Shown piece after piece: positions 850 through 60,928 of a stretch of DNA of 64,000 nt; positions within the stretch are counted from its first letter, which is position 1; the number at the start of each line of letters is the position of its first letter. This DNA is from Pycnococcus provasolii. Lineage: Eukaryota > Chlorophyta > Pseudoscourfieldiophyceae > Pseudoscourfieldiales > Pycnococcaceae. The DNA lies in assembly GCA_938743325.2 (NCBI GenBank), contig OW568883.1:372001-436000 (forward strand), written 5' to 3'. The position numbers and the translations under genes are program-made. The notes beneath the pieces are model-generated. The model made no database searches and had not been told where the DNA came from. It was given only the letters and a program-made list of their open reading frames with translations.

Positions 850-3291
850 CTAGTCCTCGTCTTGATTGACAAGCGCCGGCAATGCTTGTGCTACACGGTG
901 CCCTCGTGGCCTCCCAACGACGCCGAGTTTCATGTCAGGAGGTACGTGCACCACGCCGGTGCGGATGCCGTGGCACAATACGTGCTTGCACTTTCCGAGG
1001 TGCTGATAGCATGTACGCCTCTTCTGTTGTGCACTCACGTTTGCACCTTTGCCACCCCACCCCACACACGTGCACGAATATACCAAGGGATCGGCGTTGA
1101 ACGCGGCAGCAGCCCCAGGCTGAAGCGGCGCGACAAGCCAAAACGCTTTGAGGAGTTTCATGGGCTCATCGAAGGTAAGCCTTGGCGTCGGACGCATCAA
1201 GAAGGTGCTGACCCACAAATGTGCACGCTCCGTGATTGCCTCACGCAGGAGCTCCTCCCACTTATCACTTCCAGGTATGGCGTCAGAGTCTGGCAGTGCC
1301 TCAAGATCCGCAGTGACGTGAGCGAACGTGTTCTGCGTCGGGTAGAGTACACCGAAAGGCGTCCGTACCTCGTACTTGACGTGCTCCTTCTTCAAGTGGA
1401 ATTGTGCTTCCCGCCAATCCTCCGCACTCACCGTTGGGACAAGCTGCCATGACTTCGTTTTCTCCTCGAGACTGCGCTGCTCAATGTACCTTACCACCTT
1501 CGTGCAGAAAGTCGCAAACGTGAATCTTTGTCTGTTGAGATCTTCTTTGAAGGTGCGGTTTTGCCGTTCTAAAGCTTGATTGTGGTGAGCAAAGCCGGGC
1601 AAGTTGAAGCCTCGCGTCCACACGACGTTCTCGCGCCAGTACCCCGTCAGCCAATCGCACCAGTCATTCTCGCCATAGGCAGGATCCTGCCACTTCATGA
1701 CCAACGCATCGAAGAGCGCATCCACAACGCCGTGCGCGAGACCTGCGGGAACATCGTGGAGCTGGAGAATGTCGTGCCGAATATCGTCGAAGTTCTCTGC
1801 GTTCACCAATTTCCCTTTATTGTTCCGGAGAGCGCCGTCTGGCCGTACGAGGTGCGTGTAGCATGTGAGGTGGCGGACATGCGATGGTTGCTCGTCCAAC
1901 TTCGCGAGCGAGGCGTCCAATCCGCGTTTGATGTTTCTCGCATTGTCGGACATTGTGAAAAGAGTTTTCTCCTTCAATGAGAATCCGCAGAGGTTTTCCA
2001 ACCCTTTCCACAGCCCGTCTCCCACGAATGTAAAATCATCCGTCACCTCGGATGTGCCGCTGATTAGAACGACACCGACGTCCCGGTAGTGCCTATCGGC
2101 GTCGAGCGTACCAACTGGTATCAAGGGTCGGCCTTCAAGGTTCACCTTGTACGTCCCGTCTGTAGCTATGAACATATTTCCGCCCGTTGCTCGCGTTTGT
2201 GCGTCGACGTTGCGGAGCAAACGAGGCGTTGTGAGGAACATGCGAAAATCCTCATTGGACGTCTCCGATGCGACGACGTAAGCTGAGTCTTCATTTGTCG
2301 GAATCGAAGAGTTTGACTGTATCCAATCCTTCAATTCGGCCATTGTATTGCCGAAAGCAGGCTTCTTCGCACCCCCCTTCGCCACAACTTTCGCGCAATT
2401 CGCCACCTGCTTAAGGGTCGGCAACCCTCCTGGTAGTTTCGACGGAGACACCGTTGTGCGTATCGATTTAAGGATTTCCGTTGGCGTCGAGTTTTGAGCA
2501 ACTCCCTTCCTAACCTCGGCTTTCGCCTCAACTGATAGGCCTTTCGACGACGTGGATTTTTCGTGAGCCTTCGGGTCATGGGATCCGGCAGAGGAGATGA
2601 CATACTCTCTCTCCTTCACCCTCCTCTCAATTTTCCCGCGGTATGGGCAGCCGCAACGAGTGTTGTGCAAACACTTATATTCAGTTACGGTATTGAACAA
2701 AGCGTTGCCATCCTTGTCGAGAAAGTCACTGGCTACTTTGCGCGTGCGCTTCTTGGTCAGCGCGTGCCCGCTTGAGCGCTTGAGCGCAGTTAGAGCGGCA
2801 TCATCACCCTTCGCCACGGGCATCCTCACGATCTCGACCCATGAAAGGGGTTTCTTCGAGGAGGAAGAAGTGGCTGTTACCGCGGCGAGCGTGTCAAGGC
2901 CCACAGGCGAGGTTTCTTGAGCGGCGTCACCACCACCAGCGGCGTCAACTCCGGTTGCGTCCGAAGCAGCGATTGCGCCCTCGCAAGTACCACCACCAGC
3001 GGCGTCAACTCCGGTTGCGTCCGAAGCAGCGATTGCGCCCTCGCAAGTACCACCACCAGCGGCGTCAACTACCGTCAATGCCGCTCCGCGCTTGCGCTTG
3101 GTTGGCTGTGCATGAGCGGCGTTGCCGGCGTTGCCACCTCCTGCGGTGATGTGCGGTGTGGCCGAGGCGCCACCGCCTGCACCTCCAACGCCAGCACCGT
3201 CGTCACATCCGCGCTTGCGAGCGCTGCGAGTCTGAGCTTTGCGAAGTGCGTTGACGCTGTTGGACGCAGCCGTCGTGCGCGTGCTCACCAT
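850..3291 (-). CDS. MULE transposase with N-terminal zinc finger and SWIM finger
   Basis: An 813-aa transposase. A low-complexity N-terminus (about residues 1-150) is followed by a zinc-binding region of the WRKY-GCM1/FLYWCH kind (a CLHNTRCGCP cluster, then an SHDPKAH histidine pair). The RNase H-like core has candidate catalytic acids in IATDGTYK, FTMSDNARN and NQALERQNR, plus the MULE-typical CYTHL motif. A SWIM finger (SCTC then CKHVLC) lies near residues 740-780. All parts are present without a stop or frameshift. The protein should bind the inverted repeats and carry out cut-and-paste transposition. The ATG at 3291 is 89 bp inside the right inverted repeat. Confidence 0.9.
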   Translation of the reverse strand: MVSTRTTAASNSVNALRKAQTRSARKRGCDDGAGVGGAGGGASATPHITAGGGNAGNAAHAQPTKRKRGAALTVVDAAGGGTCEGAIAASDATGVDAAGGGTCEGAIAASDATGVDAAGGGDAAQETSPVGLDTLAAVTATSSSSKKPLSWVEIVRMPVAKGDDAALTALKRSSGHALTKKRTRKVASDFLDKDGNALFNTVTEYKCLHNTRCGCPYRGKIERRVKEREYVISSAGSHDPKAHEKSTSSKGLSVEAKAEVRKGVAQNSTPTEILKSIRTTVSPSKLPGGLPTLKQVANCAKVVAKGGAKKPAFGNTMAELKDWIQSNSSIPTNEDSAYVVASETSNEDFRMFLTTPRLLRNVDAQTRATGGNMFIATDGTYKVNLEGRPLIPVGTLDADRHYRDVGVVLISGTSEVTDDFTFVGDGLWKGLENLCGFSLKEKTLFTMSDNARNIKRGLDASLAKLDEQPSHVRHLTCYTHLVRPDGALRNNKGKLVNAENFDDIRHDILQLHDVPAGLAHGVVDALFDALVMKWQDPAYGENDWCDWLTGYWRENVVWTRGFNLPGFAHHNQALERQNRTFKEDLNRQRFTFATFCTKVVRYIEQRSLEEKTKSWQLVPTVSAEDWREAQFHLKKEHVKYEVRTPFGVLYPTQNTFAHVTADLEALPDSDAIPGSDKWEELLREAITERAHLWVSTFLMRPTPRLTFDEPMKLLKAFWLVAPLQPGAAAAFNADPLVYSCTCVGWGGKGANVSAQQKRRTCYQHLGKCKHVLCHGIRTGVVHVPPDMKLGVVGRPRGHRVAQALPALVNQDED
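2941..3060 (-). repeat. Two identical 60-bp tandem units inside the transposase gene
   Basis: 2941-3000 and 3001-3060 are identical. They code for a duplicated 20-residue Ala/Gly/Thr-rich segment in the disordered N-terminus. The identity points to a recent slippage or duplication. Confidence 0.95.
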
Positions 3292-18784: not shown

Positions 18785-19122
18785 AGTTTCTTGCTTGCTT
18801 GAAAGAAAGAGATTAAGCAGGATGTACTGGATGGAGCCTCTAGAGTGCTTGATGAATCCTCCTGAGAGATTCCTGAAAGAATGAGCACAGATTCTGTGAG
18901 CCTCTGAGAGTAACTGACAAGTGAGACGAGTGGACTCTAGAGATAGAGTTCAGTGCACTACTCGTAGACTAAGGTAGTGGCGGCGAGCGAGTGTTTCTTT
19001 CACAGGTACAGGTCTATGAAAGAAATGTCCGTCGGCGGCGACGACGACAGGAAAATGACGAAAAAAGCGGATAAGAAAAAGGAAGGGGAAAAATGACACA
19101 ACAGTGAACAGACCTGGGAGGA
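18785..19122. other. Divergent promoter region, no gene seen
   Basis: It lies between the starts of the YbeY-HAD gene (18784, minus) and the RCC1-repeat gene (19245, plus). It contains purine-rich stretches but no recognisable ORF with an ATG. Confidence 0.5.
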
Positions 19123-19190
19123 GGGTTAGGGTTAGGGTTAGGGTTAGGGTTAGAGGGTTAAGAATTAGGGTTAGAGGGTTAGGGGTTAGG
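19123..19190 (+). promoter_or_regulatory. Degenerate TTAGGG array upstream of RCC1-repeat gene
   Basis: Five contiguous ttaggg units, then three units interrupted by agagg and agaa. It ends 55 bp before the ATG at 19245. Read as protein it gives an artificial RVRVRV run, which is why the longer frame was not used. Confidence 0.6.
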
Positions 19191-19244
19191 CGCCTCAAGC
19201 CTTCTAGAGGTGCCACCATTTTCGGCTTGTCCATTCTCTGCCCC

Positions 19245-20228
19245 ATGTCAGCGGCGCATGCCAGCATGCCAGCGCCACGCCTACAAGGAGAGTTGGCGTA
19301 CGATGCGCTGCGCCTAGGAGTTTTTCCCTGGCAGCGTGAGCGACGCCTCGCCAAAGAACGTGAGCGAGTGAACGTCGCGCGGTTCTCGTCGAGAGTACTT
19401 ATCGCTGGTACTTCTCACTCGTTGGCATTGCGAATCGACGGCGGAATCGCGTGCTGGGGACACAACGGCTACGGCCAGGCGCCTCCTGACGGCGTCGACG
19501 GCGACTTTGTCGCCATCGCTGCGGGCCATGAACACTCGCTGGCGCTACGACGCGACGGCAACATCGCGTGCTGGGGTGACAACTTCTTCGGCCAGGCGCC
19601 TCCCGGCGGCGTCGACGGCGACTTCGTCGCGATCGCCGCGGGGCGCTTCCATTCAATTGCGCTTCGACGCGACGGCGACATCGCGTGCTGGGGACGCAAC
19701 AACCGCGACCAGGCGCCTCCCGGTGGCGTCGACGGCGACTTCGTCGCGATCGCCGCGGGACAATACCACTCGCTGGCGCTGCGACGCAACGGCAGGATCG
19801 CGTGCTTGGGAGACAACAGCTTCGACCAGGCACCTCCCGCCGGCGTCGGGGGAGACTTCATCGCGATTTCTGCAGGTTGGCGGCACTCGTTGGCGCTGCG
19901 AAGCAACGGCAACGTCGCGTGCTGGGGACGCAACCGTTGGGGCCAAGCACCTCCCGACGGCGTGGACGGCGACTTCGTCGCAATCGCTGCGGGTGGAAAT
20001 CACTCGCTCGCGCTACGACGCGACGGCGGCGTCACGTGCTGGGGATACAACGCCGAGGGCCAGGCGCCTCCCGGCGGCGTCGACGGCGACTTCGTCGCAA
20101 TCGCTGCGGGTGGAAATCACTCGCTCGCGCTACGACGCGACGGCGGCGTCACGTGCTGGGGACGCAACGACGACGGCCAGGCGCCTCCCAACGGCGTTGC
20201 TGGTCCATTCAAGACGCGAGAGTTGTAA
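19245..20228 (+). CDS. RCC1/BLIP-II-like seven-repeat beta-propeller protein
   Basis: A 327-aa protein. After about 55 basic N-terminal residues (FPWQRERRLAKERERVN) come seven tandem units of 39 residues (117 bp) of the form IAAGxxHSLALRRDG.IACWG, then a short N..GQAPP tail, ending in a KTREL tail. Seven units would close one propeller. The units are nearly identical except for the two residues before HS and those after WG, and units 6 and 7 are almost copies of each other. RCC1-type repeats bind other proteins, and BLIP-II is a bacterial inhibitor built this way; the ligand here is unknown. A broken copy of its 3' end lies at 34440-34576. TGTAA overlaps the stop. Confidence 0.8.
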   Translation: MSAAHASMPAPRLQGELAYDALRLGVFPWQRERRLAKERERVNVARFSSRVLIAGTSHSLALRIDGGIACWGHNGYGQAPPDGVDGDFVAIAAGHEHSLALRRDGNIACWGDNFFGQAPPGGVDGDFVAIAAGRFHSIALRRDGDIACWGRNNRDQAPPGGVDGDFVAIAAGQYHSLALRRNGRIACLGDNSFDQAPPAGVGGDFIAISAGWRHSLALRSNGNVACWGRNRWGQAPPDGVDGDFVAIAAGGNHSLALRRDGGVTCWGYNAEGQAPPGGVDGDFVAIAAGGNHSLALRRDGGVTCWGRNDDGQAPPNGVAGPFKTREL

Positions 20229-20646: not shown

Positions 20647-21234
20647 TCAGGCAGCTCCCGGCTTGCGGAACTCGCACAGAATCGGGTAGATGTTCTCAAA
20701 AGCTTTGTAAATCTGCTCGCACTTACGAGCACCCAACAAACGAACCTTGCCGCTCTGGTAAATCAACAGAGTCACCTTCGGATTCAGCATGCGGTACAAC
20801 GCATTCGGGCTGATTTCCGTGTCGTAGCTGACGTGCCGACCGTGCTTGTACGCCAAGCTCGCCAAGTTGAGCTGGTAACCCATGTCCGCCGTACCGTTGA
20901 TGTTGATGACGCGAAAGTCGTTCACCGACGCGGCGTAGTCAGCCTTCTTCACGTTTTTGGCAAACTTCGTCGCCGCGCGCTTCGCATCCGCCTCGCTCTT
21001 CGTGCCCGTGACGTTCACCTTCCCGCTCGCAAAGATGCACGCGGTGGAGTGCGGCTCTCGGATGCGCGAAACCACCGCCGGATATCTCTTCGGGTTGTAC
21101 TCGCAGTTCTTCGCGTGCAGCGTGACCTGCTTCAGATCCACCTCGCATCCCAGAGAAAACTGCGCGACGACGTTGTCAATGTTCGGAACGATCCCGGACG
21201 GGTGCAGGGAGAGGTCAGGGGCGGCTGATGACAT
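20647..21234 (-). CDS. TBP: TATA-binding protein (TBP)
   Basis: A 195-aa general transcription factor that binds the TATA element and nucleates TFIID/TFIIIB/SL1. The saddle domain is complete, with two symmetric repeats: IVPNIDNVVAQFSLGCEVDL ... SRIREPHSTACIFASGKVNV in the first, and YDTEISPNALYRMLNPKVTL ... SGKVRLLGARKCEQIY in the second. Two features depart from textbook TBP: the basic linker and first-repeat helix are less conserved (EADAKRAATKFAKNVKKADY), and the usual PELFPGL-type motif is replaced by EISPNALY. Its first 110 codons are duplicated in inverted orientation at 28936. The NACHT gene fragment starts 787 bp away on the opposite strand. Confidence 0.9.
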   Translation of the reverse strand: MSSAAPDLSLHPSGIVPNIDNVVAQFSLGCEVDLKQVTLHAKNCEYNPKRYPAVVSRIREPHSTACIFASGKVNVTGTKSEADAKRAATKFAKNVKKADYAASVNDFRVININGTADMGYQLNLASLAYKHGRHVSYDTEISPNALYRMLNPKVTLLIYQSGKVRLLGARKCEQIYKAFENIYPILCEFRKPGAA

Positions 21235-22021
21235 CTCTTCTATCTATCTAGCGCTGCTGTTGGTGGAGAGCAGAAGAAGAGGAGGAGAAACCAAAGGCAG
21301 ACAAGAAGAGAAGAACGGACACCACGAGTCAGTGAACACAGCAGCAGCTTACGGCATCATCGCGAACCAAAAAAGGGAAAGCGGCGCAGAAAGAGGCGGA
21401 GGCGCCATACCCCGCGAAGAATGAGAAGAACAACAAAGCGAGCGGCGGGGGCAAAGACCTTAGACCTCAGCAGCCAAGGCGCAGAGCTCGTCGACTGTAA
21501 CAATACTTGCATGCATCGAGGTTCATATGTTGTGTATTTTCATTAACTTCCATCAAACAATTTGATCGTCTCTATGGTGTACGTTTCCAATCAACATAAC
21601 CTTGGAACAACCACTGCGACACAGGTCTAATCTCGAACCTTAAATTTCACAGATAGTGGCAGCATACATCGTAAGTTTTCAAGAAAAACATTGCTCCAAG
21701 TCGATGACAACAAACCAGATCTAACCGAATCCAACCACAACAGTTTGCCAACATTCCGCAAAGAATTATTAAACCCTCAATGAGGATGAGACGGCGGTTC
21801 GATTCCGCCTGGAGACAGCTACAATATCATGTTCATCAAGACATTTTTTTTTGCCGTTTTTTGCATGAGGACTTTTTTTTGCATGCCGACAAACTTACTA
21901 ACCCTAACCCTAACCCGATGCAAGACAGGTACTTCCTACTACGTCCCGAACGACCACCTCAACTCTGCCACCTCTGCCACCTCCGCCATCACAACCAGCG
22001 CTCACAAGACACGGACCGGCC
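21235..22021. other. Divergent intergenic region, left arm
   Basis: The shared upstream region of TBP and the receptor fragment, repeated at 28150-28935. It holds a T-arm-like ggcgg-ttcgatt-ccgcc hairpin near 21793, two T-rich runs and a three-unit CCCTAA array. No gene seen. Confidence 0.6.
21898..21916. promoter_or_regulatory. Telomere-like repeat, left arm
   Basis: Three CCCTAA units ending 106 bp before the ATG at 22022. Confidence 0.5.
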
Positions 22022-23488
22022 ATGGGGTGCGCGGCGTCGACGGCGGCGCAGCAAGTACACGGCGCGGCGTCGACGTCAACATCAACGGCACGCAAGGAAG
22101 AACTCTGGCCGACGACGGTGCTGCCAGTCAAGCCAACGAGGCAAGACGTCGACGATGGGAAGACTCAGACCGAACATGCGTCAGAGTCGCCCGTCAGCCG
22201 CGCGGTGTCGCTCGCATGGCTTGCACAGTTTGTTAAGGCGCACGCCGGAACGACGCAGAGCTGGGACGTCGTCAAGGAGTTCATGGCTGAGGAGGATGGT
22301 GGTGGGAAAGATGCGGTCTTATTCGTGACGTCTGACAACCTAGAGACGCACCGCGATATGCGACGAGCTGCTGAAAAAACAAAGAGCGGCAAGCCGGTTC
22401 CGGTCGAGTATCGCGCCATCCCGTTCGAGCAGATGTACACGACGGACGTCGTCGAGTGCTTCGTGCGTTCGCTGGCACGCAAAGAGCACATGAGCTACGC
22501 GCAAGCCGAGAATCTTCCTGTTGGCGCGCCGACGTACTTCATTTCGCACGCGTGGAACAGCCTTTTCGTCGACCTCGTGGAGAGCGTGAAAGGGGCACTT
22601 GCAGGCGCTGCTCAAGCAGATACGTACGTGTGGCTTGACATATTCGCCATCAACCAGGACGATACGGGTGGCGTATCTTCAGCCATGAAAGAGCTCGACG
22701 ACGGCCGCACGCTCGCTGGTACGATAGCGACGTCTCGCGGAACGCTCGTCGTGCTGGATAAAGATCGCGTCATTCCGTTGACGAGGTTGTGGTGCCTGTA
22801 CGAGATTGGGTCGACACCACCGCAGAAGCTGCAGCTCGTCACGCACGGCTTCTCGGAAAAGGACGTGTCGCAGCATATTCGTAATATCGACGCGGAGACG
22901 GCGCTGTGCTTTTCGGAAGACGATAAGAAGATGATTCGCGGCGAAATCACGGGCAAGTTTGGGTTTGCGAGCATGAAGCACTTCACAGAGGAGCTCAAGC
23001 TGCGTTTTATGCTCCGCCCGATGAGCTACGAGTCGGATTTGCAGGCGCTGCGAGAGCGGGGACAGAGCAACAAGTACCAGTTCGAGGCGCTGCGTGCACA
23101 CGTGACGTCGACTGGTGGACGTCTTGCATGCGTCGTTGGCGGACCAGGAGAGGGCAAGTCGAGTGTGGCTGCGGCGGCCCTCGACTTGGTTCACGCGGCT
23201 CACTTCTGCAAACGTGCGGACGTCAGGCGCCAGGACGTGCTTGAGATGGTGAGGTCGCTTGGCTTTCAGCTTGGTCAGCAGTCTGATGTCGTTAGGAAAT
23301 GCCTGATTGATCTGGATGAAGACACCGCTGCGAAGGCGCTCGTCGACCCGGATGTTGCTGTGAATGCGGTTTTGGTGGGACCGTTAAAAGAGCTTGCTAA
23401 AATGAGAACGCACGCCGTGATTTTGCTGGATGCGCTCGACGAGGCGGACGATGAGTTGCACACGTCCAATGCTGCGGTGGGGTTGTAA
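22022..23488 (+). pseudogene. Truncated copy of TIR-like/NACHT receptor (duplication arm)
   Basis: 488 residues, identical to the first 486 of the receptor at 23701-28149: myristoylation-type start MGCAAS, TIR-like domain (YFISHAWNSLF about residue 172, RLWCLYEIG about 257) and NACHT with Walker A GGPGEGKSS (about 372) and Walker B ILLDALDEAD (about 466). At the duplication breakpoint (23485) it runs into a stop after two more codons, losing the rest of the NACHT domain and all WD40 repeats. It could still be expressed as a TIR-like/NACHT short form, which in plant and animal immunity sometimes acts as a helper or decoy. Here that is only a possibility. Confidence 0.85.
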
Positions 23489-23700: not shown

Positions 23701-26700
23701 CTATGCACCATTCGCGCTTGTCGCAATCGCGTCCCACACGCGAACGGTCGAGTCATTACTCGCGGAGACGATGCGTGTACCATCCGCGGAATACGAGGCG
23801 GAGGAATACGATGCAGAATGCACATCAGAAGAATGGCCTTCCAGCACAGATAGACACGCGCCCGTCGTCGCGTCCCAGACGCGTACACTCCTGTCCCAGC
23901 TCGCGGAGACGATGCGCGCACCATCCGCGGAATACGAGGCGGAATGCACATCATCAGAATGGCCTTCCAGCACGGATATACACGCGCCGGTCATCGCGTC
24001 CCACACGCGAACGGTCGAGTCACCGCGAGCGCTCGCGGAGACGATGCGCGTCCCATCCGCGGAATACGAGGCGGAAGTCACATCATCAGAATGGCCTTCC
24101 AGCACAGATATACACGCGCCGGTCGTCGCGTCCCACACGCGAACGGTCTTGTCCCAGCTCGCGGAGACGATGCGCGTACCATCCGCGGAATACGAGGCGG
24201 AAGTCACCGCATTAGAATGGCCTTCCAGCACAGATATGCACGCGCCGGTCGTCGCGTCCCACACGCGAACGGTCTTGTCACCGCTCGCGGAGACGATGCG
24301 CGTACCATCCGCGGAATACGAGGCGGAAGTCACACCACCAGAATGGCCCTTCAGCACCGATATACACGCGCCGGTCGTCGCGTCCCATACGCGAATAGTC
24401 TTGTCACCGCTCGCGGAGACGATGCGCGTACCATCCGCGGAATACGAGGCGGAATGCACACCACCATAATGGCCTTCCAGCACCGATATACACGCGCCGG
24501 TCATCGCGTCCCATACGCGAATAGTCTTGTCCTCGCTCGCGGAGACGATGCGCGTACCATCCGCGGAATACGATGCGGAAAACACCCTACCAGAATGACC
24601 TTCCAGCAACACAGATAGACACGCGCCGGTCGTCGCGTCCCAGATGCGAATGGGTGCGCCATAGCTAAATGATGATACGCTCGCGGAGGAGACGATGCGC
24701 GTCCCATCCGCGGAATACGAGGCGGAAGTCACCGCATCAGAATGGCCTTCCAACACAGATATGCACGCGCCTGATTTGGCGTCCCAGACGCGAACGGTTT
24801 TGTCCTCGCTCGCGGAGACGATGCGCGTACCATCCGCGGAATACGATGCGGAAGTCACACCATCAGAATGGCCCTTCAGCACACGCACGCGCCAACCCGT
24901 AATGGCGTTCCAGACGCGAACGGTCTTGTCCCAGCTCGCGGAGACGATTCGCGTACCATCCGCGGAATACGAGGCGGAAGTCACACCATCAGAATGGCCC
25001 TTCAGCACACGCACGCGCCAACCCGTAATGGCGTTCCAGACGCGAACGGTCTTGTCCGTGCTCGCGGAGACGATGCGCGTACCATCCGCGGAATACGAGG
25101 CGGAAGTCACACCACCATAATGGCCTTCCAGCACAGATATGCACGCGCCGGTCAACGCGTCCCATACGCGAACGGTATTGTCACCGCTCGCGGAGACGAT
25201 GCGCGTCCCATCCGCGGAATACGAGGCGGAATGCACACCACCAGAATGGCCTTTCAGCACAGATATACACGCGCCGGTCGTCGCGTCCCACACGCGAACG
25301 GTCTTGTCACCGCTCGCGGAGACGATGCGCGTCCCATCCGCGGAGTACGAGGCGGAAGTCACACCACCATAATGGCCTTCCAGCACCGATATACACGCGC
25401 CGGTCGTCGCGTCCCAGACACGAACGGTATTGTCACTACTAAAGAAGTCCCCGCTCGCGGAGACGATGCGCGTACCATCCGCGGAATACGATGCAGAATT
25501 TACTTCACTAGAATGGCCTTTCATGTTGTTCAATATCGTAGCATCAATATCCACACGAGCAGGCAAGCAAGCATTAGGCGCACCCATGAACACCGATTGT
25601 CCTTGACTCTGATACCATGCACTAGTACACGGCACATTCGCCGCAATCACTCCAGCCTGCGAATACGTCCCAACTCCCCATCGAAGCACGCGAAAAAAGG
25701 CATGCAGCGATTCCACAGTCGCCACCAACCCAGTAACATAATCTGCCAACTTCTCCTTCGCTTCCAAAAGCGCCTTTTCGAGGCGCAGCAATTCCACCAC
25801 GAGCACGCCTCTTCGACCTGCATCCATCTGACGCTTCAACCACAGACCCGCAAATCGTGTCGCACACCAACGTGACGCCTTGTATCCCTTAGGCACCATC
25901 GCCGCAGTCTTTTCCTTGCGCTCAACCATGAACGCGTCAGACCACTCCTTCATGACATCTATCGCCAACGTCTCATCACCACCATGCAGCATCTTCTCAA
26001 CCGCCTCGGTCAAGTGCATGTGTGCATGTCGCAAGGAATACGCCACTGCCGGCCCCTTCTCGTCGTCACCACGTTTCAGAACGTCCAGGCAAGATCGCGT
26101 CAGCTCACAACGTCCACGAGACACGTTAGCTGCGTGCTCGCCTGATCGCTTCGTATCTCCCAAAAACTCACGCAGCGACAAGTGCAACGTCTGCAGCAGG
26201 TGATCACGCTCCTCGAACAGCAATCCCCAGCCAGGTAGCCGCTCGCACGTCTCCCGCAAACGCAATCTATCAACATGCACCGACGAGAGAGGTTCGCGCG
26301 AAGCAAGCACAATGTCAATCAGCCGACGAACATCCTCGTCATCCTTCGCTGCGCGATCAAACCAAAGCTTATACGCGGCATCAATATCCGCAGGTGGCTC
26401 CAAACTTGTGCCGTATCGCTTGACAAACTCGCGAGCAACAATCTGGTACACCTTTGAGCTCTGCATGTTGCGCATCGCCTGTTCCCAGGCTTCCGGCAAA
26501 CGACTGTCCTCCTCCTTATCTTCCACCGCCTTCGATCCCAAGACCTGTGCAGGCTCAAATACTTGCATGCCACCTTCCCAATCATACTCCAGCACGCGTC
26601 GACGAGGATAGTCACCATCCGCATCTGGGCGCGTCGTCACAAGCACAGAGACGCCATTGCGCGCCTTGCGAGCCAGAATCCGCAGCAACCCCACCGCAGC

Positions 26701-28149
26701 ATTGGACGTGTGCAACTCATCGTCCGCCTCGTCGAGCGCATCCAGCAAAATCACGGCGTGCGTTCTCATTTTAGCAAGCTCTTTTAACGGTCCCACCAAA
26801 ACCGCATTCACAGCAACATCCGGGTCGACGAGCGCCTTCGCAGCGGTGTCTTCATCCAGATCAATCAGGCATTTCCTAACGACATCAGACTGCTGACCAA
26901 GCTGAAAGCCAAGCGACCTCACCATCTCAAGCACGTCCTGGCGCCTGACGTCCGCACGTTTGCAGAAGTGAGCCGCGTGAACCAAGTCGAGGGCCGCCGC
27001 AGCCACACTCGACTTGCCCTCTCCTGGTCCGCCAACGACGCATGCAAGACGTCCACCAGTCGACGTCACGTGTGCACGCAGCGCCTCGAACTGGTACTTG
27101 TTGCTCTGTCCCCGCTCTCGCAGCGCCTGCAAATCCGACTCGTAGCTCATCGGGCGGAGCATAAAACGCAGCTTGAGCTCCTCTGTGAAGTGCTTCATGC
27201 TCGCAAACCCAAACTTGCCCGTGATTTCGCCGCGAATCATCTTCTTATCGTCTTCCGAAAAGCACAGCGCCGTCTCCGCGTCGATATTACGAATATGCTG
27301 CGACACGTCCTTTTCCGAGAAGCCGTGCGTGACGAGCTGCAGCTTCTGCGGTGGTGTCGACCCAATCTCGTACAGGCACCACAACCTCGTCAACGGAATG
27401 ACGCGATCTTTATCCAGCACGACGAGCGTTCCGCGAGACGTCGCTATCGTACCAGCGAGCGTGCGGCCGTCGTCGAGCTCTTTCATGGCTGAAGATACGC
27501 CACCCGTATCGTCCTGGTTGATGGCGAATATGTCAAGCCACACGTACGTATCTGCTTGAGCAGCGCCTGCAAGTGCCCCTTTCACGCTCTCCACGAGGTC
27601 GACGAAAAGGCTGTTCCACGCGTGCGAAATGAAGTACGTCGGCGCGCCAACAGGAAGATTCTCGGCTTGCGCGTAGCTCATGTGCTCTTTGCGTGCCAGC
27701 GAACGCACGAAGCACTCGACGACGTCCGTCGTGTACATCTGCTCGAACGGGATGGCGCGATACTCGACCGGAACCGGCTTGCCGCTCTTTGTTTTTTCAG
27801 CAGCTCGTCGCATATCGCGGTGCGTCTCTAGGTTGTCAGACGTCACGAATAAGACCGCATCTTTCCCACCACCATCCTCCTCAGCCATGAACTCCTTGAC
27901 GACGTCCCAGCTCTGCGTCGTTCCGGCGTGCGCCTTAACAAACTGTGCAAGCCATGCGAGCGACACCGCGCGGCTGACGGGCGACTCTGACGCATGTTCG
28001 GTCTGAGTCTTCCCATCGTCGACGTCTTGCCTCGTTGGCTTGACTGGCAGCACCGTCGTCGGCCAGAGTTCTTCCTTGCGTGCCGTTGATGTTGACGTCG
28101 ACGCCGCGCCGTGTACTTGCTGCGCCGCCGTCGACGCCGCGCACCCCAT
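23701..28149 (-). CDS. TIR-like/NACHT/WD40 receptor (NLR-like), 14 WD repeats
   Basis: A 1482-aa, single-exon STAND NTPase. Order: MGCAAS (candidate N-myristoylation with adjacent Cys, so membrane anchoring is likely); TIR-like domain about residues 165-300 (YFISHAW, TYVWLDIFAINQ, RLWCLYEI, with the Glu that in plant TIRs is catalytic); NACHT about 360-520 (GGPGEGKSS, ILLDALDEAD, VSVLVTTRPD); a helical/winged region about 530-870; then 14 WD40 repeats of 42 residues (about 875-1478), i.e. two seven-bladed propellers. The repeats share an almost fixed backbone (SASYSADGTRIVSAS, TVRVWDATTGACISV) with variation concentrated at a few positions. This is the layout of HET-E/HNWD-type recognition proteins. 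Downstream, about 23544-23700 carries another frame with a WD-like TVWDAL remnant, perhaps an older C-terminus. Confidence 0.9.
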   Translation of the reverse strand: MGCAASTAAQQVHGAASTSTSTARKEELWPTTVLPVKPTRQDVDDGKTQTEHASESPVSRAVSLAWLAQFVKAHAGTTQSWDVVKEFMAEEDGGGKDAVLFVTSDNLETHRDMRRAAEKTKSGKPVPVEYRAIPFEQMYTTDVVECFVRSLARKEHMSYAQAENLPVGAPTYFISHAWNSLFVDLVESVKGALAGAAQADTYVWLDIFAINQDDTGGVSSAMKELDDGRTLAGTIATSRGTLVVLDKDRVIPLTRLWCLYEIGSTPPQKLQLVTHGFSEKDVSQHIRNIDAETALCFSEDDKKMIRGEITGKFGFASMKHFTEELKLRFMLRPMSYESDLQALRERGQSNKYQFEALRAHVTSTGGRLACVVGGPGEGKSSVAAAALDLVHAAHFCKRADVRRQDVLEMVRSLGFQLGQQSDVVRKCLIDLDEDTAAKALVDPDVAVNAVLVGPLKELAKMRTHAVILLDALDEADDELHTSNAAVGLLRILARKARNGVSVLVTTRPDADGDYPRRRVLEYDWEGGMQVFEPAQVLGSKAVEDKEEDSRLPEAWEQAMRNMQSSKVYQIVAREFVKRYGTSLEPPADIDAAYKLWFDRAAKDDEDVRRLIDIVLASREPLSSVHVDRLRLRETCERLPGWGLLFEERDHLLQTLHLSLREFLGDTKRSGEHAANVSRGRCELTRSCLDVLKRGDDEKGPAVAYSLRHAHMHLTEAVEKMLHGGDETLAIDVMKEWSDAFMVERKEKTAAMVPKGYKASRWCATRFAGLWLKRQMDAGRRGVLVVELLRLEKALLEAKEKLADYVTGLVATVESLHAFFRVLRWGVGTYSQAGVIAANVPCTSAWYQSQGQSVFMGAPNACLPARVDIDATILNNMKGHSSEVNSASYSADGTRIVSASGDFFSSDNTVRVWDATTGACISVLEGHYGGVTSASYSADGTRIVSASGDKTVRVWDATTGACISVLKGHSGGVHSASYSADGTRIVSASGDNTVRVWDALTGACISVLEGHYGGVTSASYSADGTRIVSASTDKTVRVWNAITGWRVRVLKGHSDGVTSASYSADGTRIVSASWDKTVRVWNAITGWRVRVLKGHSDGVTSASYSADGTRIVSASEDKTVRVWDAKSGACISVLEGHSDAVTSASYSADGTRIVSSASVSSFSYGAPIRIWDATTGACLSVLLEGHSGRVFSASYSADGTRIVSASEDKTIRVWDAMTGACISVLEGHYGGVHSASYSADGTRIVSASGDKTIRVWDATTGACISVLKGHSGGVTSASYSADGTRIVSASGDKTVRVWDATTGACISVLEGHSNAVTSASYSADGTRIVSASWDKTVRVWDATTGACISVLEGHSDDVTSASYSADGTRIVSASARGDSTVRVWDAMTGACISVLEGHSDDVHSASYSADGARIVSASWDRSVRVWDATTGACLSVLEGHSSDVHSASYSSASYSADGTRIVSASNDSTVRVWDAIATSANGA

Positions 28150-28935
28150 GGCCGGTCCGTGTCTTGTGAGCGCTGGTTGTGATGGCGGAGGTGGCAGAGG
28201 TGGCAGAGTTGAGGTGGTCGTTCGGGACGTAGTAGGAAGTACCTGTCTTGCATCGGGTTAGGGTTAGGGTTAGTAAGTTTGTCGGCATGCAAAAAAAAGT
28301 CCTCATGCAAAAAACGGCAAAAAAAAATGTCTTGATGAACATGATATTGTAGCTGTCTCCAGGCGGAATCGAACCGCCGTCTCATCCTCATTGAGGGTTT
28401 AATAATTCTTTGCGGAATGTTGGCAAACTGTTGTGGTTGGATTCGGTTAGATCTGGTTTGTTGTCATCGACTTGGAGCAATGTTTTTCTTGAAAACTTAC
28501 GATGTATGCTGCCACTATCTGTGAAATTTAAGGTTCGAGATTAGACCTGTGTCGCAGTGGTTGTTCCAAGGTTATGTTGATTGGAAACGTACACCATAGA
28601 GACGATCAAATTGTTTGATGGAAGTTAATGAAAATACACAACATATGAACCTCGATGCATGCAAGTATTGTTACAGTCGACGAGCTCTGCGCCTTGGCTG
28701 CTGAGGTCTAAGGTCTTTGCCCCCGCCGCTCGCTTTGTTGTTCTTCTCATTCTTCGCGGGGTATGGCGCCTCCGCCTCTTTCTGCGCCGCTTTCCCTTTT
28801 TTGGTTCGCGATGATGCCGTAAGCTGCTGCTGTGTTCACTGCTCGTGTCCACTGCTCGTGTCCGTTCTTCTCTTCTTGTCTGCCTTTGGTTCCTCCTCTT
28901 CTTCTGCTCTCCACCAACAGCGCTAGATAGAAGAG
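28150..28935. other. Divergent intergenic region, right arm
   Basis: Inverted copy of 21235-22021 with the same hairpin, T-runs and telomere-like units. It contains a short extra repeat (cactgctcgtgtc twice, about 28838-28862) that is absent from the left arm. No gene seen. Confidence 0.6.
28255..28273. promoter_or_regulatory. Telomere-like repeat upstream of the intact receptor
   Basis: Three TTAGGG units 106 bp before the ATG at 28149, the mirror copy of 21898-21916. Confidence 0.5.
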
Positions 28936-29307
28936 ATGTCATCAGCCGCCCCTGACCTCTCCCTGCACCCGTCCGGGATCGTTCCGAACATTGACAACGT
29001 CGTCGCGCAGTTTTCTCTGGGATGCGAGGTGGATCTGAAGCAGGTCACGCTGCACGCGAAGAACTGCGAGTACAACCCGAAGAGATATCCGGCGGTGGTT
29101 TCGCGCATCCGAGAGCCGCACTCCACCGCGTGCATCTTTGCGAGCGGGAAGGTGAACGTCACGGGCACGAAGAGCGAGGCGGATGCGAAGCGCGCGGCGA
29201 CGAAGTTTGCCAAAAACGTGAAGAAGGCTGACTACGCCGCGTCGGTGAACGACTTTCGCGTCATCTGGGGTTCCATGCTTTGCAACATGAGCCAATCAAA
29301 AGAGTAG
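28936..29307 (+). pseudogene. Truncated TBP copy
   Basis: The first 110 residues equal TBP at 20647-21234, ending at NDFRVI. The frame then leaves the duplication at 29265 and adds 13 unrelated residues before a stop. The second half of the DNA-binding saddle is missing, so it cannot work as a normal TBP. If expressed it might only interfere. Confidence 0.9.
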
Positions 29308-50315: not shown

Positions 50316-51608
50316 ATGGGCTTGGGCCTCGTGGGATGCAATTCCAAGCGTCTCCGACGAGGTCGTTCATTCTCATTATTACGACGAAACACGTTCGTTG
50401 CGCCTGAACCTTCAAACGCTGATGACGATGGTGATAACGTTGAGACGGACTCACATGGTGGTGGTGGTGGTGGTGGTGGTGGTGGTGGTGGTGGTGACTT
50501 GAGCCAAAATTCACCCTCGCGGACGCAGAGCGGGGATGACAGCGACGGCGTGATGACTGGCACTTCACAACGTCTTAGCCAAGGAACCATATCATCTGGC
50601 AGCAGAAAACCACTCTCGCTACCACCGCTCATGCGCGAGGACAAAAACAAGACAAACGTGAATAGCGCGTCGGCAACGTCGATGAACACCACACCTGCAA
50701 CGAACAGCAAACCTGCAAAATGCCTATTCGAGTGCAGAGGACACACGTCGGAGATTCGACACGCTTGCTACAGCCCTGACGGAACATATTTCGTTTCCGC
50801 AAGTGCAGACCACACCGCGCGCATCTGGGACGCGTCTACAGGCACATGTACAGCTACGCTGGAGGATGATGGCATGGAGATCGTGACATCGGTATCATGC
50901 AGTCAAGAAGGCCAGCGCGTCGTGTCCGCGAGCTCCGACGGCAATGTTCGCTTGTGGGATATGCAAACGGGCAAGCTGATCGGAACGTTCAAGGGGGCGC
51001 ACAACTTTGGCGTCAACTCCGCCATTTTCACGGAAGGTGACGCGCACATCATGAGCGCTGGAGAAGATGGCACGATCTGTACATGGGATGCCGCCACTCT
51101 CTCTCGCTCGTCCACGGTGAAAGCGGACAACGGAATCTTTCTCACATCAGCAAGCTTGCACCCGGATGGAACGCGCGTCATCACGTCGCGCAAGGATAGC
51201 GCGTTGCGCGTGTCGTCGCGAAGCGGCAGTGTGGATAGTGCGATGATAATGGACGGGCACAACGGGTTTGTGAACTCTGCATGTTACAGCTCAGATGGAT
51301 CGCGTGCCTTGTCCGCGAGTGTCGACAATACAGCACGAATCTGGGATGCTTCCACGGGCGAGTGTCTGCTCACGTGCCTTGGTCATGGCGACGCGGTGCA
51401 CGATGCGTCGTTCAGCGCAAACGGCAGACGATTTGTAACTGCGAGTGCAGACCGCACCGCACGCATCTGGGATGCTTCGACGGGCGAGTGCCTGCTCACG
51501 TGTCTTGGTCACGACGACGTCGTGAGCTCGGCATGCTTCAGTCCTGATGGCAGTCACGTCGTGTCATCCAGCTGGGACACGTCGCTGTGCGTCTGGGAAT
51601 GTATTTAG
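50316..51608 (+). CDS. Seven-repeat WD40 protein
   Basis: A 430-aa protein. A disordered N-terminus with a polyglycine run (GGT microsatellite, about 50457-50495) is followed by seven WD40 units from residue about 140, e.g. GHTSEIRHACYSPDGTYFVS and TARIWDASTGTC. The last two units share a near-identical ARIWDASTGECLLTCLGH block, showing recent internal duplication. One propeller is complete. The units resemble those of the NACHT receptors (SADGT/SPDGT, RIWDASTG), so the propeller may share ancestry with them, but there is no NTPase domain. It converges with the RING gene, 73 bp between stops. Confidence 0.82.
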   Translation: MGLGLVGCNSKRLRRGRSFSLLRRNTFVAPEPSNADDDGDNVETDSHGGGGGGGGGGGGGDLSQNSPSRTQSGDDSDGVMTGTSQRLSQGTISSGSRKPLSLPPLMREDKNKTNVNSASATSMNTTPATNSKPAKCLFECRGHTSEIRHACYSPDGTYFVSASADHTARIWDASTGTCTATLEDDGMEIVTSVSCSQEGQRVVSASSDGNVRLWDMQTGKLIGTFKGAHNFGVNSAIFTEGDAHIMSAGEDGTICTWDAATLSRSSTVKADNGIFLTSASLHPDGTRVITSRKDSALRVSSRSGSVDSAMIMDGHNGFVNSACYSSDGSRALSASVDNTARIWDASTGECLLTCLGHGDAVHDASFSANGRRFVTASADRTARIWDASTGECLLTCLGHDDVVSSACFSPDGSHVVSSSWDTSLCVWECI

Positions 51609-53817: not shown

Positions 53818-56800
53818 ATGTCCACCGCAACAATCACGAAGCAGTTCTTCCAAGACAACTTCCCCGACGCCATAAGCGCGCCTGACACGGGATTCATGGC
53901 GCTCGGCGCTGACAGCTTGGACCTTGAGCGCTGGGCACTCGACCTCGCGAAGTGTTTGCCGGAAGATGCGGACGTGAGCGCCATGACGTTCACGGAGTAC
54001 CCAACTTACAACGAACTTCTCGAATACCTCGTCGAGGAACTGCAAGACGAGGAGGAAGCCAACGAGGAGGATGACGTGCCACGAGGTGTCGGCGAAGAGA
54101 GTGACGATGAGGCGGAAGTATCCACCTCCACTCACATTCTCGCAGAGACGCAGCAGCTTCCCGACCACCAACAACACCACGCAGAGCTTGCAGACTCATC
54201 GTCGAAAAGCGTCATCTTCAAGGTCCTGCACGACTTCTTTTCGAAGGAGCTGCCTGTAGCCCTGAAGCAGCCGGACGTGCCGTTCACGGAGCTCTGCGGC
54301 GGCGAAACGCAACTCCCGTTCGCACGCTGGGCGCTGAGCCTTGGGCGAAGTCTGCAGGAGTCCAGCCTGTGCCTTCCGGTGCACACCGACGTGCTTGACG
54401 ACGTGGTCATACGTAAGTGTGCCACACTGAACCAGCTCGAACAACACCTCGAACGACTGATGGGCATCACAGACACTCGTCGCACACTCGCTCCCGCTGG
54501 CTCCGACGATCATCACAGCTCGGAGAGGCTCGAAGGAGCAGCCATGCGCGAAGCTGTGCAACGTCGTGGTGTGACCATCGCGCCAGTCGTGCTTGCGTTC
54601 GTCGACTGCGGCGTCTTTGACTACATCTGCCGCAACGAGTGGAGCACGCTTCAGATGGTGCAGTCAACACGATCCGGCTTCTGCATTCCGCATGGCGTCC
54701 TTCACGCGGGGATGCACATCATGATGAGCCTTGGGTGGATGGACACGCGATCGGGTCCTGGTGGCGAGGCGCAGTACCGTCTCACCGAAAGCTTTCCGTA
54801 CGACGACATGTTCGGCAAGGGTGCCGCGCTCGGCGCGCACACCGTAGAGGCGACATTCTTTCGCGCCAAGTACGCGGAGATGCTTCTTGCATACGCACTG
54901 CTGCTCTCGAGCATTGACGATGCACGCCTTGACTGGGCGTCGAAGCTGGCAAGCGACATGGGAACGGTGTTCCGCTGTCTCGACAATAGCGTCGTCAAGG
55001 ACAAGCGCGTCTGCAGGCCGATTGCTGGCAATCAGCTTGAGGATTTCGACATGGTCAAACACATGCGGCAGATTCGCAACCCGATCTTGCGCGAGCTCAT
55101 GCTTGGAGGTGTCGTAGTGCCGCTGCTCGTGACGCTCAAGGCTGCGTGCAAATGCTGCGCTTCTGAGACTCACATCAACGACACGACATTCGCCACGATG
55201 CTCCCGATGGCGGCGCCTGACGCGCTCGCCGTGCAGACGATGCGCAGGTTCCTTGAGGACGCTGATGCGAGCGTCTCGAGTGCCAGCAGCACCGCGCGTG
55301 CTCTCCTCGAGGAGACTGGCGTTCTTGCTCCTCGCGTGAAGTTTGGATCGGACGCGTCTCCCACAATCTTCACCGTGGAGGGCAAGGTGAGCTGGTGTCG
55401 CGCCTTCCACGCGTGCTCTGCTGTGGCAAATTTGCCACAAATCCTGCGACGCTGCTTCCTTGTGCCACCGGGATCAAAGCTGCTGAACGCAACTTCACGC
55501 AATACCCCACTGCACAAGCTCGCGTACCACATGAAGTACAGCTGTTTCTTGAAGGCATTCGGACATCACCACTGCGGTGGCGTAGATGAGATTCAAGATC
55601 GGCGATATCACATGAGATCGGCGATCGTGCAGGACGAGGACGATACTGCTCCGATGAATCTTCTGCAGCTGCGCGCGTCGGATCTGCGCACCTTCGCAAT
55701 GGAGGAGGACTGCGGCAGCTTAGCGCTGCCGTGGCTGACGAGGGCTTGCTCGAAGCCGGGCATGTTTGCACTAGACGACGATGGCGCAACCTTCGACCCC
55801 CTTGAGATGGGCCGTGGACTCGTCGCGATGATGCGTCGTGCCGCTCGCGACACGGCTGATGAAGTCCGCGCCTTGCCCGTGTTCGTGGCTATCGCACATC
55901 AGCTCGGAATCGTGGCACACGACGACGACGACGACGACGACGACAAGCCTCGTCGCGTCTACGCGCCGAGCGTTTACGACGAAGCACTGCACGGCTCCCT
56001 GCTGATGGATGCGCACACATTTTATTCCTGTGCGATGATGGCTGGCTTGTTTCCCCGCGGCCTGCACGCGGACGTGTACCCCCTTCCGACGTCGCTGTTC
56101 AGTCCACGCCCGACCGCGCACGTGTCCATGACGCGGCTCGTCACGCACAACGGGATTGCGCTGCGCATCCTGCGTCCCGACGATACCGTTCTTGTGGAGG
56201 TGACGCCGCAGCAGCACCTCGCAGCGCGACGCTTTCTCCCGGACTTTCCTCAGGACGTCACAGATTCCGCTTTCATGACGCGTGCACCCGTGCTGTCCGT
56301 GGCACGCTTCTGGGAGTACATCCACTGGGGCAAAGATGAGATGTGCACGCCGGAGGAGACTGTACGCCTACGCTACTCGAACCATCCGTCCGGGCAGTAT
56401 GGACTCGTGGATACGCAGACTGGCGAGCTGCTTGCCATGCTTTTCACCCAGCGCATCAACACGCCTTCCATGTACCTGCGCGACTTCCCGAACCAAGCGA
56501 AATGGGCGACGAAGGAAACATTCCACGTCGCGGGTGGTCGATACGTGCAGCTGCTTGACATATTCAGCGCAAAGTCGGGCGGACGAGTCGTGCGCGATGA
56601 GAAAACATCAGGCGTGGGATCTTACCTGCGCTATGTGGCCAAGATGTTGCTTGGGATGTCGCCTGACTGCGAGGGTGTTTACGCGGTAACGCGCGGCCGC
56701 GACTACTATCGGAAGGCGGCTGCAGAGGGTGTGAGTTACGCTGATTACGTGCGTCAGGTGGCATCTGGGAAGATTCGTGACACCGGCATTAACTTTCATA

Positions 56801-56898
56801 CCGATGGCGGTGCGGAGGTTGTGCGCGAGGTTCCCGACTGGCGAGCTGCGGATGAGGTGAACGACGGTTTTGGGGTGCTGATCAAGTACACAAAGTGA
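53818..56898 (+). CDS. Multidomain protein: two carrier-protein-like domains, winged-helix region, GNAT-like C-terminus
   Basis: A 1026-aa, single-exon protein. Residues about 1-75 look like an acyl/peptidyl carrier protein, with FMALGADSLDLERWALDLAK and the serine that normally takes phosphopantetheine (about residue 33). Residues about 130-220 look like a second carrier domain whose motif is FTELCGGETQLPFARWAL, i.e. the Ser is missing. From about 245, VVLAFVDCGVFDYICRNEWS and HIMMSLGWM ... YRLTESF resemble the winged-helix dimerisation part of O-methyltransferases, and a related-looking block follows (LLEETGVLAPRV, then TVEGKVSW). The C-terminus (about 830-1000) has a GNAT-like look (YGLVDTQTGELLAMLF, then YVQLLDIFSAKSGG and GVYAVTRGRDYY). 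It may be a stand-alone piece of polyketide/non-ribosomal-type chemistry. No ketosynthase or adenylation domain is in the window. Confidence 0.6.
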   Translation: MSTATITKQFFQDNFPDAISAPDTGFMALGADSLDLERWALDLAKCLPEDADVSAMTFTEYPTYNELLEYLVEELQDEEEANEEDDVPRGVGEESDDEAEVSTSTHILAETQQLPDHQQHHAELADSSSKSVIFKVLHDFFSKELPVALKQPDVPFTELCGGETQLPFARWALSLGRSLQESSLCLPVHTDVLDDVVIRKCATLNQLEQHLERLMGITDTRRTLAPAGSDDHHSSERLEGAAMREAVQRRGVTIAPVVLAFVDCGVFDYICRNEWSTLQMVQSTRSGFCIPHGVLHAGMHIMMSLGWMDTRSGPGGEAQYRLTESFPYDDMFGKGAALGAHTVEATFFRAKYAEMLLAYALLLSSIDDARLDWASKLASDMGTVFRCLDNSVVKDKRVCRPIAGNQLEDFDMVKHMRQIRNPILRELMLGGVVVPLLVTLKAACKCCASETHINDTTFATMLPMAAPDALAVQTMRRFLEDADASVSSASSTARALLEETGVLAPRVKFGSDASPTIFTVEGKVSWCRAFHACSAVANLPQILRRCFLVPPGSKLLNATSRNTPLHKLAYHMKYSCFLKAFGHHHCGGVDEIQDRRYHMRSAIVQDEDDTAPMNLLQLRASDLRTFAMEEDCGSLALPWLTRACSKPGMFALDDDGATFDPLEMGRGLVAMMRRAARDTADEVRALPVFVAIAHQLGIVAHDDDDDDDDKPRRVYAPSVYDEALHGSLLMDAHTFYSCAMMAGLFPRGLHADVYPLPTSLFSPRPTAHVSMTRLVTHNGIALRILRPDDTVLVEVTPQQHLAARRFLPDFPQDVTDSAFMTRAPVLSVARFWEYIHWGKDEMCTPEETVRLRYSNHPSGQYGLVDTQTGELLAMLFTQRINTPSMYLRDFPNQAKWATKETFHVAGGRYVQLLDIFSAKSGGRVVRDEKTSGVGSYLRYVAKMLLGMSPDCEGVYAVTRGRDYYRKAAAEGVSYADYVRQVASGKIRDTGINFHTDGGAEVVREVPDWRAADEVNDGFGVLIKYTK

Positions 56899-60839: not shown

Positions 60840-60928
60840 TGTCTTCTCCAGCTTCGAAGAAGCAAAAGCGCGACGTCGACGAAGAAGAAGGACCACCAGG
60901 AGTGTCGTCGTCCAAGGATAACAACAAT

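Follow-up and report, generated by a model that had tools for sequence, protein, structure and literature searches.

Hypervariable WD40 repeats in a TIR-like/NACHT gene family of the green alga Pycnococcus provasolii, a candidate set of NLR-type receptors

Why a single-celled green alga should carry a gene with repeats that are nearly identical to one another except at a handful of residues is the question raised by a 64,000-nucleotide stretch of Pycnococcus provasolii DNA (assembly GCA_938743325.2, contig OW568883.1, positions 372,001 to 436,000; hereafter the window). Positions 23701 to 28149 of the window hold, on the reverse strand, a single open frame of 1482 amino acids, here called C23a, for which Pfam matches and paralogues indicate an intact gene encoding a TIR-like domain, a NACHT-type NTPase and 14 WD40 repeats. 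The answer that we favour is that C23a probably belongs to a family of intracellular receptors of the NOD-like receptor (NLR) type that is under diversifying selection and would sense non-self, mostly pathogens. Members combine a conserved TIR-like/NACHT head (ratio of nonsynonymous to synonymous substitution rates, dN/dS, 0.19 to 0.26) with usually 14 near-identical blades. Residues at the predicted contact positions of these blades are positively selected, and at times they have been swapped between loci and copied inside an array.

The architecture of C23a largely bears out a sequence-only reading of the same DNA. One uninterrupted protein begins at MGCAAS, which we take to be a putative N-myristoylation/palmitoylation-type signal, heading a variable 50-residue leader (28000 to 28149, on the reverse strand like all parts of the gene) that is supported by the open frame, by the starts of family members and by a dN/dS of 0.59. 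The NACHT core (26629 to 27060) matches the Pfam family NPHP3_N at E 3.1e-13 and keeps intact Walker A (GGPGEGKSS) and Walker B (ILLDALDEAD) motifs, as in NLR and STAND proteins, and Pfam recovers the 14 WD40 stretches (array at 23704 to 25524). C-terminal superstructure-forming repeats, for which the sequences suggest a sensor role, are thus present as WD40 in C23a, as ankyrin in the relative P0022 and as TPR in two sister genes. The near-invariant 42-residue backbone that had been proposed holds for the family, in which 136 of 144 units are clean, but not for all of C23a, in which units 1, 7, 12 and 14 bear insertions.

The N-terminal domain (residues 51 to 345; 27115 to 27999) is called TIR-like on the basis of its predicted structure, because no Pfam TIR profile matches it. 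The AlphaFold2 model (mean predicted local distance difference test, pLDDT, 82.4) finds its best matches among TIR domains with both VIA-align and Foldseek, at modest scores, and is consistent with a flavodoxin-like TIR core at about residues 167 to 335 behind an extra N-terminal alpha/beta cap. Residues 1 to 345 match no Pfam TIR (within HMMER filter limits) or HET family at E<=10 and no TIR model of NCBIfam or PADLOC, and a PDB sequence search with the domain gave no useful match. In the full protein a PADLOC HEAT/ARM model matched within the WD40 region, which is uninformative, and PF01582 has a single partial match in the whole genome, outside this domain. The TIR assignment thus stands as a predicted fold but not as a profile match. 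The glutamate expected of such a domain is retained in a WCLYE motif (27367 to 27381): W257, C258 and E261 are invariant across 36 aligned sequences, C23a included. E261, placed like the WxxxE-helix glutamate of NADases, is the putative catalytic residue and presumably the equivalent of SARM1 E642.

C23a is one of 12 TIR-like/NACHT/WD40 genes in the genome (G000; 32.3 Mb, 46 contigs, the window being 372001 to 436000 of contig C23), the others being C23b, C21, C32, C33, C30, C6, C12, C41, C44, C7a and C3; C-labels denote contigs of this genome and the family loci on them, P-labels proteins of relatives and L-labels fetched loci. NPHP3_N scores above cut-off in all 12. Long WD40 arrays are present in 11, that of C30 irregular, and C33 (L012) is broken, ending after about one repeat. 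A thirteenth relative, C7b, is judged to carry ankyrin repeats from its 84-87% identical relatives P0022, in which Pfam finds ankyrin, and P0023; it is outside all WD40 counts. One additional NPHP3_N frame lies at C3:515915 (sequence not fetched), and a six-frame, exon-by-exon search of the genome found no match to NB-ARC. Among the 13 fetched genes, ten start with MGC and three (L017, L019, L020) with an EF-hand-like pair, P0022 having a Pfam EF-hand match. Over 66 gene pairs, dN/dS is 0.19 for the TIR-like region, 0.26 for NACHT, 0.38 for residues 541 to 875 and 0.59 for the leader, ratios that point to conserved heads under purifying selection. Decay is ruled out for 11 of the 12 WD40 members because their open frames are intact and head dN/dS is low. 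The closest proteins are, by name, from P. provasolii and Pseudoscourfieldia marina.

Variable positions and their predicted place on the propeller

To locate the variation we use the 136 clean 42-codon units out of 144 from 11 genes; the eight with scores below 90 that were left out come from C23a (four), C30 (two), C33 and C7a. Positions 6, 7, 9, 25 and 27 of the unit are by far the most variable, with entropies of 2.3 to 3.5 bits, and 27 of the remaining 37 positions stay below 0.5 bit, a focus far beyond chance. Relative to the overall synonymous difference of within-gene pairs (pS 0.166), the nonsynonymous difference (pN) at these sites gives ratios of 3.67, 4.04, 3.32, 3.95 and 2.28. These are the sites at which the sequence-only reading had placed the variation, together with position 28, which we reject as a variable site: it is threonine in 116 of 136 units, with a pN/pS of 0.81. 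Position 40 reaches a ratio of 1.94 through conservative variation, mostly among I, L and V.

Selection was assessed codon by codon with a test of the fixed-effects likelihood (FEL) type in our own implementation, identical DNA units being merged to leave 127 distinct ones. Codons 6 (p 6e-8), 7 (1e-4), 9 (7e-5), 25 (7e-5) and 40 (0.004) come out positive, the first four surviving correction for 42 sites. Four further runs used a tree inferred with the variable codons left out, a set without C32 and C30, and each half-array alone. Codons 6, 7, 9 and 40 have p<0.05 in all five runs; codon 25 is positive in two, the second half-array being the only extra run in which it recurs, and codons 27 and 28 are positive in none. 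Codons 5 and 29 appear once each near p 0.05 in the extra runs. Positive selection is unsupported at codon 27, which is variable, yet has a silent rate that is also high. The same sites vary in relatives: among 11 close ones with at least 12 units (P0003 to P0013), positions 6, 7 and 25 are within the top seven in all 11 and all five variable positions are in nine, and of the more distant relatives P0020 has four of the five and P0031 all five. The three relatives from Chlamydomonas that have sufficient units are far less repetitive.

Where these residues would lie can be read from a model of the C23b array (pLDDT 84.1; predicted template modelling score, pTM, 0.56), in which strands span unit positions 8-13, 19-24, 28/29-33 and 39-42 with 1-2. 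In this model the d-a loop holds positions 6 and 7 and the b-c loop holds positions 25 and 27, and position 9 is among the first residues of strand a. General top-face contacts of WD40 propellers, R1-2, R1 and D-1, are spaced by 2 and 16 residues (PMC3419727), as are the WDR5 pocket residues A47, S49 and A65 (PMC6859963). When D26 is taken as the tetrad Asp, this spacing falls on 7, 9 and 25, which would make these three the standard top-face contacts. The expectation that the variable sites share one face is supported for 7, 9 and 25, with 6 and 27 in loops, but position 40, in strand d of the model, is an exception among the positively selected sites. The best Foldseek match of the model is the highly repetitive propeller 2ymu; this match and the 14 units favour two closed seven-bladed propellers, although the model, at this pTM, leaves open which blades close together.

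Turnover between strains and exchange between loci

Reciprocal-best matches of the N-terminal region (870 to 904 aligned residues, 91.1-96.9% identity) give six pairs with comparable arrays, C6/P0003, C12/P0008, C41/P0005, C44/P0007, C7a/P0009 and C3/P0010, in which two partners are named P. provasolii and four P. marina, organisms whose 18S rRNA is reported as identical (PMC11130579). Five long-array genes stand outside this comparison: the mutual best of C21, P0002, holds just two units, and C23a, C23b, C32 and C30 have no comparable mutual best. With a looser unit cut that admits short last units (144 units), backbones are 90-93% identical between paired strains and the five variable sites 18% (C6), 27% (C12), 23% (C41), 20% (C44), 8% (C7a) and 15% (C3) identical, against a mean of 22% for pairs of paralogues. 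Pooled over the six pairs, 72 of 390 variable sites match, compared with 76.6 +- 6.4 when units are shuffled, and one five-residue code in 78 is retained at the same index. The predicted strain-to-strain variation is thus plain: in these six pairs the variable sites agree at chance level only, and turnover is complete while the heads stay 91-97% identical. An ordinary neighbour gene (53818 to 56898) offers a yardstick: a metagenome, not from the same strains, holds a relative 98% identical to it. As to repeat number, nine of the 11 long arrays have 14 units and the other two have 12 and about 11; C12 has 12 units against 14 in its partner, and the other pairs have 13 or 14.

One candidate cause of the strain differences is the shuffling of a shared pool of units. 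The 144 units of this genome hold 120 distinct codes, of which four recur among the 85 P. marina units sampled (chance 1.5, P 0.06) and two in that of other P. provasolii (51 units; chance 0.6, P 0.12). Because so few codes are shared, shuffling looks insufficient as the sole cause, both pools being incomplete repertoires. Between the two other pools the corresponding P is 0.04. The small excess over chance in these comparisons traces to codes like EYTQK and NWTYK.

Within this genome at least one pair of arrays has been exchanged between loci: C21 and C32 are 90-96% identical over their first 2.4 kb and 96-100% identical in seven of nine DNA windows of the array; of the two remaining windows, the last in the array is 83% identical and the other 86%. 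One identical 126-nucleotide unit occurs twice in C41 and once in C7a, and for 53 of 136 units the nearest-resembling unit is in the same gene (about 9% by chance), mean backbone similarity being hardly higher within genes than between them. These observations agree with the concerted evolution that had been proposed. Together with the FEL results and the turnover between strains, the exchange of arrays also supports reading these homogenised repeats as under diversifying selection in the manner of fungal HET-E/HNWD proteins.

The locus itself is flanked by an inverted duplication. Directly downstream of C23a, a forward-strand open frame of 488 amino acids (22022 to 23488) repeats the 5' part of the gene with 100% identity, corresponding to its first 488 residues; it has the TIR-like region and both Walker motifs (NPHP3_N, E 1.5e-10) and lacks WD40 repeats. 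It belongs to an arm (20905 to 23485) that pairs with 26686 to 29265, the other arm, which takes in the 5' part of the gene, the sequence upstream of it and the beginning of a TATA-binding protein gene; stretches of 2156 and 342 nucleotides are 100% identical, and the arms 99.2% overall with gaps. The start of the TATA-binding protein gene is duplicated with the arm (28936-29307 and 20905-21246). A truncated N-terminal copy of 672 amino acids (58959 to 60977, forward strand) is likewise the inverted partner of C23b, the C-terminal part of which (62203 to 63999, reverse strand; 14 WD40 units, the last shortened by the protein end) lies in the window, the gene extending past it. Inverted copies of the upstream region lie past the 3' end at five of the 12 loci, C23a, C23b, C32, C3 and C33, possibly an undercount as flanks were searched over about 2-3 kb. 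The copied 5' part spans about the first 85 to 627 codons at four of them, C33 having the upstream part only; arms are 97.6-99.9% identical with the array between them (L010, L011, L005, L019, L012). The ankyrin gene C7b has no inverted duplication. Assembly error is an unlikely source, judged by coverage and recurrence: coverage is 444-fold HiFi (PMC11130579), and the arrangement recurs at other loci with arms of that identity.

Pieces of receptor gene also occur elsewhere. Four 4.2-kb elements (L021:1273-5491, L023:1211-5442, L024:744-4972 and L025:3837-8068), 98.2-99.6% alike, have terminal inverted repeats of about 345 bp and target-site duplications of 9 bp, which are clear in three elements and emerge in the fourth when its end is moved by one base; they contain a piece of receptor N-terminus with a C33-like start besides other gene-like stretches. 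Their make-up suggests Mutator-type elements that have captured parts of genes; no transposase was identified in them. Receptor-type WD40 arrays, 61-80% identical, are found at C25:216398-217261, C8:255935-256792 and C27:143882-144625 in open frames of 419 to 502 amino acids, too short for a receptor head. Between the two receptor loci of the window, a small WD40 protein with an MGLGLVGC start (50316-51608, forward) is 44% identical to the array. The window further holds an RCC1-type propeller gene (19104-20228, forward) with 117-bp repeats about 80% alike, and an 813-residue open frame (850-3291, reverse) that has no Pfam match at E<=0.001 and by eye looks like a transposase, its C-terminal part having a zinc-finger-like stretch.

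What the arrays may recognise

If C23a is a receptor, its blades would close into two seven-bladed propellers with variable top faces. These would bind a ligand that itself changes fast, most likely a protein from a virus, a bacterium or another parasite and less likely a conspecific self marker. Binding could then allow the NACHT ATPase to oligomerise and bring together TIR domains, which might cleave NAD+ or make a nucleotide signal via E261, with an acylated MGC start, or the EF-hand in some members, placing or gating the complex at a membrane; the infected cell would die or arrest. Several points weigh against this scenario. The result for codon 25 is not robust across runs, codon 27 is not positively selected, and FEL was applied to repeats that recombine. 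Other genomes are sampled incompletely, and orthology was called from reciprocal-best N-terminal matches without synteny. The fold scores of the TIR-like domain are modest, and it is from sequence and predicted structure that we infer ligand sensing, NADase activity, membrane anchoring and cell death.

Were the ligand a marker of conspecifics, the family would form an allorecognition (incompatibility) system like HET-D/HET-E versus HET-C. The overlap of the selected positions with those of HET-D and HET-E (PMC1805685, PMC2873952) and the turnover between strains or species of identical 18S rRNA (PMC11130579) are in keeping with this, but the alga is single-celled and pathogen pressure would give same-looking sites, and we regard such a system as unlikely. 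Diversity might also require no ligand at all if concerted evolution homogenises the repeats while loop residues drift neutrally on a generic or obsolete scaffold. The predicted position of the variable sites, in loops or at a strand start, would suit such relaxed constraint, and highly repetitive WD40 proteins are reported from bacteria and lower eukaryotes (PMC5587647). However, at codons 6, 7 and 9 every run gives amino-acid rates several times the synonymous ones, the other loop positions (14-18 and 35-38) have entropies of 0 to 0.72 bit and the heads are under purifying selection, which makes neutral drift quite improbable. Nor does it seem at all probable that these are signalling or scaffold proteins without an immune role, for example in stress-triggered cell death, with calcium gating in the EF-hand-like forms: members with such starts exist, as do relatives in Chlamydomonas species, yet such a role leaves the selection at contact positions and the total turnover between strains unexplained.

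How the diversity arises is a related issue. Most changes in the variable codons fall on their first two bases, position 6 ending in T in 122 of 136 units, and neighbouring codons are almost frozen even at silent sites (codon 8 is GTG in 130 units of 136, codon 26 GAC in 134), a pattern that brings to mind locus-directed hypermutation, reported in a targeted form for putative antigen sensors of multicellular bacteria (PMC10907252), rather than ordinary mutation and selection. Selection with recent homogenisation would yield the identical picture, though, and the first base of codons 6, 7, 9 and 25 can be any of the four, with two or three third bases in use at 7, 9 and 25. Neither a mutator nor a template repeat turned up, no search having been aimed at either. 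A rough estimate, assuming a silent divergence of about 0.1 and a beta/alpha of about 5-8, gives about 5% shared codes, near the observed four in 120. We consider hypermutation very unlikely. A broader proposal, that WD40, ankyrin and TPR sensors with strain-rewritten contacts, array swaps, recurrent inverted 5' duplications and Mutator-like elements with receptor pieces form one dedicated receptor-diversification system, with a built-in means of re-pairing heads and arrays, is speculative and in our judgement rather doubtful. The preferred reading remains that of a pathogen-directed NLR-type family.

Relation to known receptor families

The closest parallel lies in the fungal HNWD proteins (HET-D, HET-E, HET-R), with which the algal genes share NACHT followed by an array of near-identical 42-residue WD40 repeats, change at the same unit positions, a predicted top-face location and exchange of repeats between loci. 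Codons 7, 9, 25 and 27 are reported under strong selection in Podospora anserina HNWD (PMC1805685, PMC2873952), and a further report lists seven positions of high dN/dS, 10, 11, 12, 14, 30, 32 and 39, in another register (PMC12222747). At an offset of five, by which 7, 9, 25 and 27 become 12, 14, 30 and 32, five of these seven coincide with the five algal variable positions, the registers being matched by spacings rather than by direct alignment. The evolutionary mode is the same in the fungal accounts (PMC1805685, PMC2873952, PMC12222747, PMC4986451). The algal family differs in having a TIR-like head in place of the HET domain, an MGC or EF-hand-like leader, a single-celled green host, and 14 repeats in nine of 11 long arrays where HNWD numbers vary widely; site 6 is among the strongest in the alga and 27 is not selected. 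The proposed algal counterpart of HET-E/HNWD therefore finds support in the overlapping variable sites, the exchange and the 42-residue array, with TIR-like replacing HET.

Plant TIR-type NLRs such as RPP1, ROQ1 and RUN1 combine a TIR effector with WCLxE, a STAND ATPase and C-terminal sensor repeats. The algal proteins resemble them in this order and, on the predicted structure, in fold, but have a NACHT of the NPHP3 type instead of NB-ARC, WD40 instead of leucine-rich repeats (LRRs) and no Pfam TIR match. Nephrocystin-3 shares the NTPase family (NPHP3_N), and the TPR of the sister genes matches TPR_NPHP3; the N-terminal domain and repeats of C23a are different ones. These sister genes, represented by L029:590-2674 and L030:998-3406, pair the TIR-like domain with TPR, and no NACHT was found among the 25 of 30 families listed for them; the TIR-like region of one such gene is matched in Salpingoeca, chytrids, oomycetes and Cymbomonas (among 120 of 132 matches listed). 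Across 69 units from ten proteins of this type, variation is focused at unit positions 33, 40, 2, 20 and 30 (2.1 to 3.3 bits), with most other positions nearly fixed. The TPR array would be another hypervariable sensor made of repeats and joined to this type of effector.

In other algae, NACHT-WD40 proteins of Chlamydomonas have these two domains in common with C23a; four NACHT candidates are described from C. reinhardtii (PMC4773052), and the accessible part of that account describes neither a TIR-like domain nor hypervariable sites. The TIR-like domain is shared by P0035 to P0040 from Chlamydomonas and Edaphochlamys, two of which begin MGCAAST, and unit similarity is 0.42-0.54 in the three of these relatives that have enough units compared with 0.76-0.85 in P0003 to P0011. 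Brown-algal LRR-ROCO proteins, too, are candidate receptors in which positions of the repeats are positively selected, but use a ROCO GTPase and LRR exon shuffling in multicellular hosts (PMC11378527). Other work on green algae concerns an Ulva NB-ARC/WD40 gene (PMC8891106) and algal NB-LRR genes (PMC7145615). A literature search, covering mostly papers open without subscription and no preprints, showed, among the titles and abstract openings listed, none on green algae that concerns hypervariable repeats or heads of the TIR-like type, and no paper on NACHT in Pycnococcus. Near-identical repeats with selected hypervariable contacts are reported to be enriched in fungal NLRs, and in Viridiplantae only 0.4% of repeats reach so high an internal identity, which makes them very rare there (PMC4986451). 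That overlapping unit positions are selected in a unicellular alga, on a TIR-like head, suggests either convergence on one surface or an older origin of this mode, and that fast-evolving NLR repertoires need no multicellularity. Since Pycnococcus, a marine picophytoplankter, can be cultured and has several sequenced genomes, the association of strain codes with susceptibility to viruses or bacteria is directly testable.

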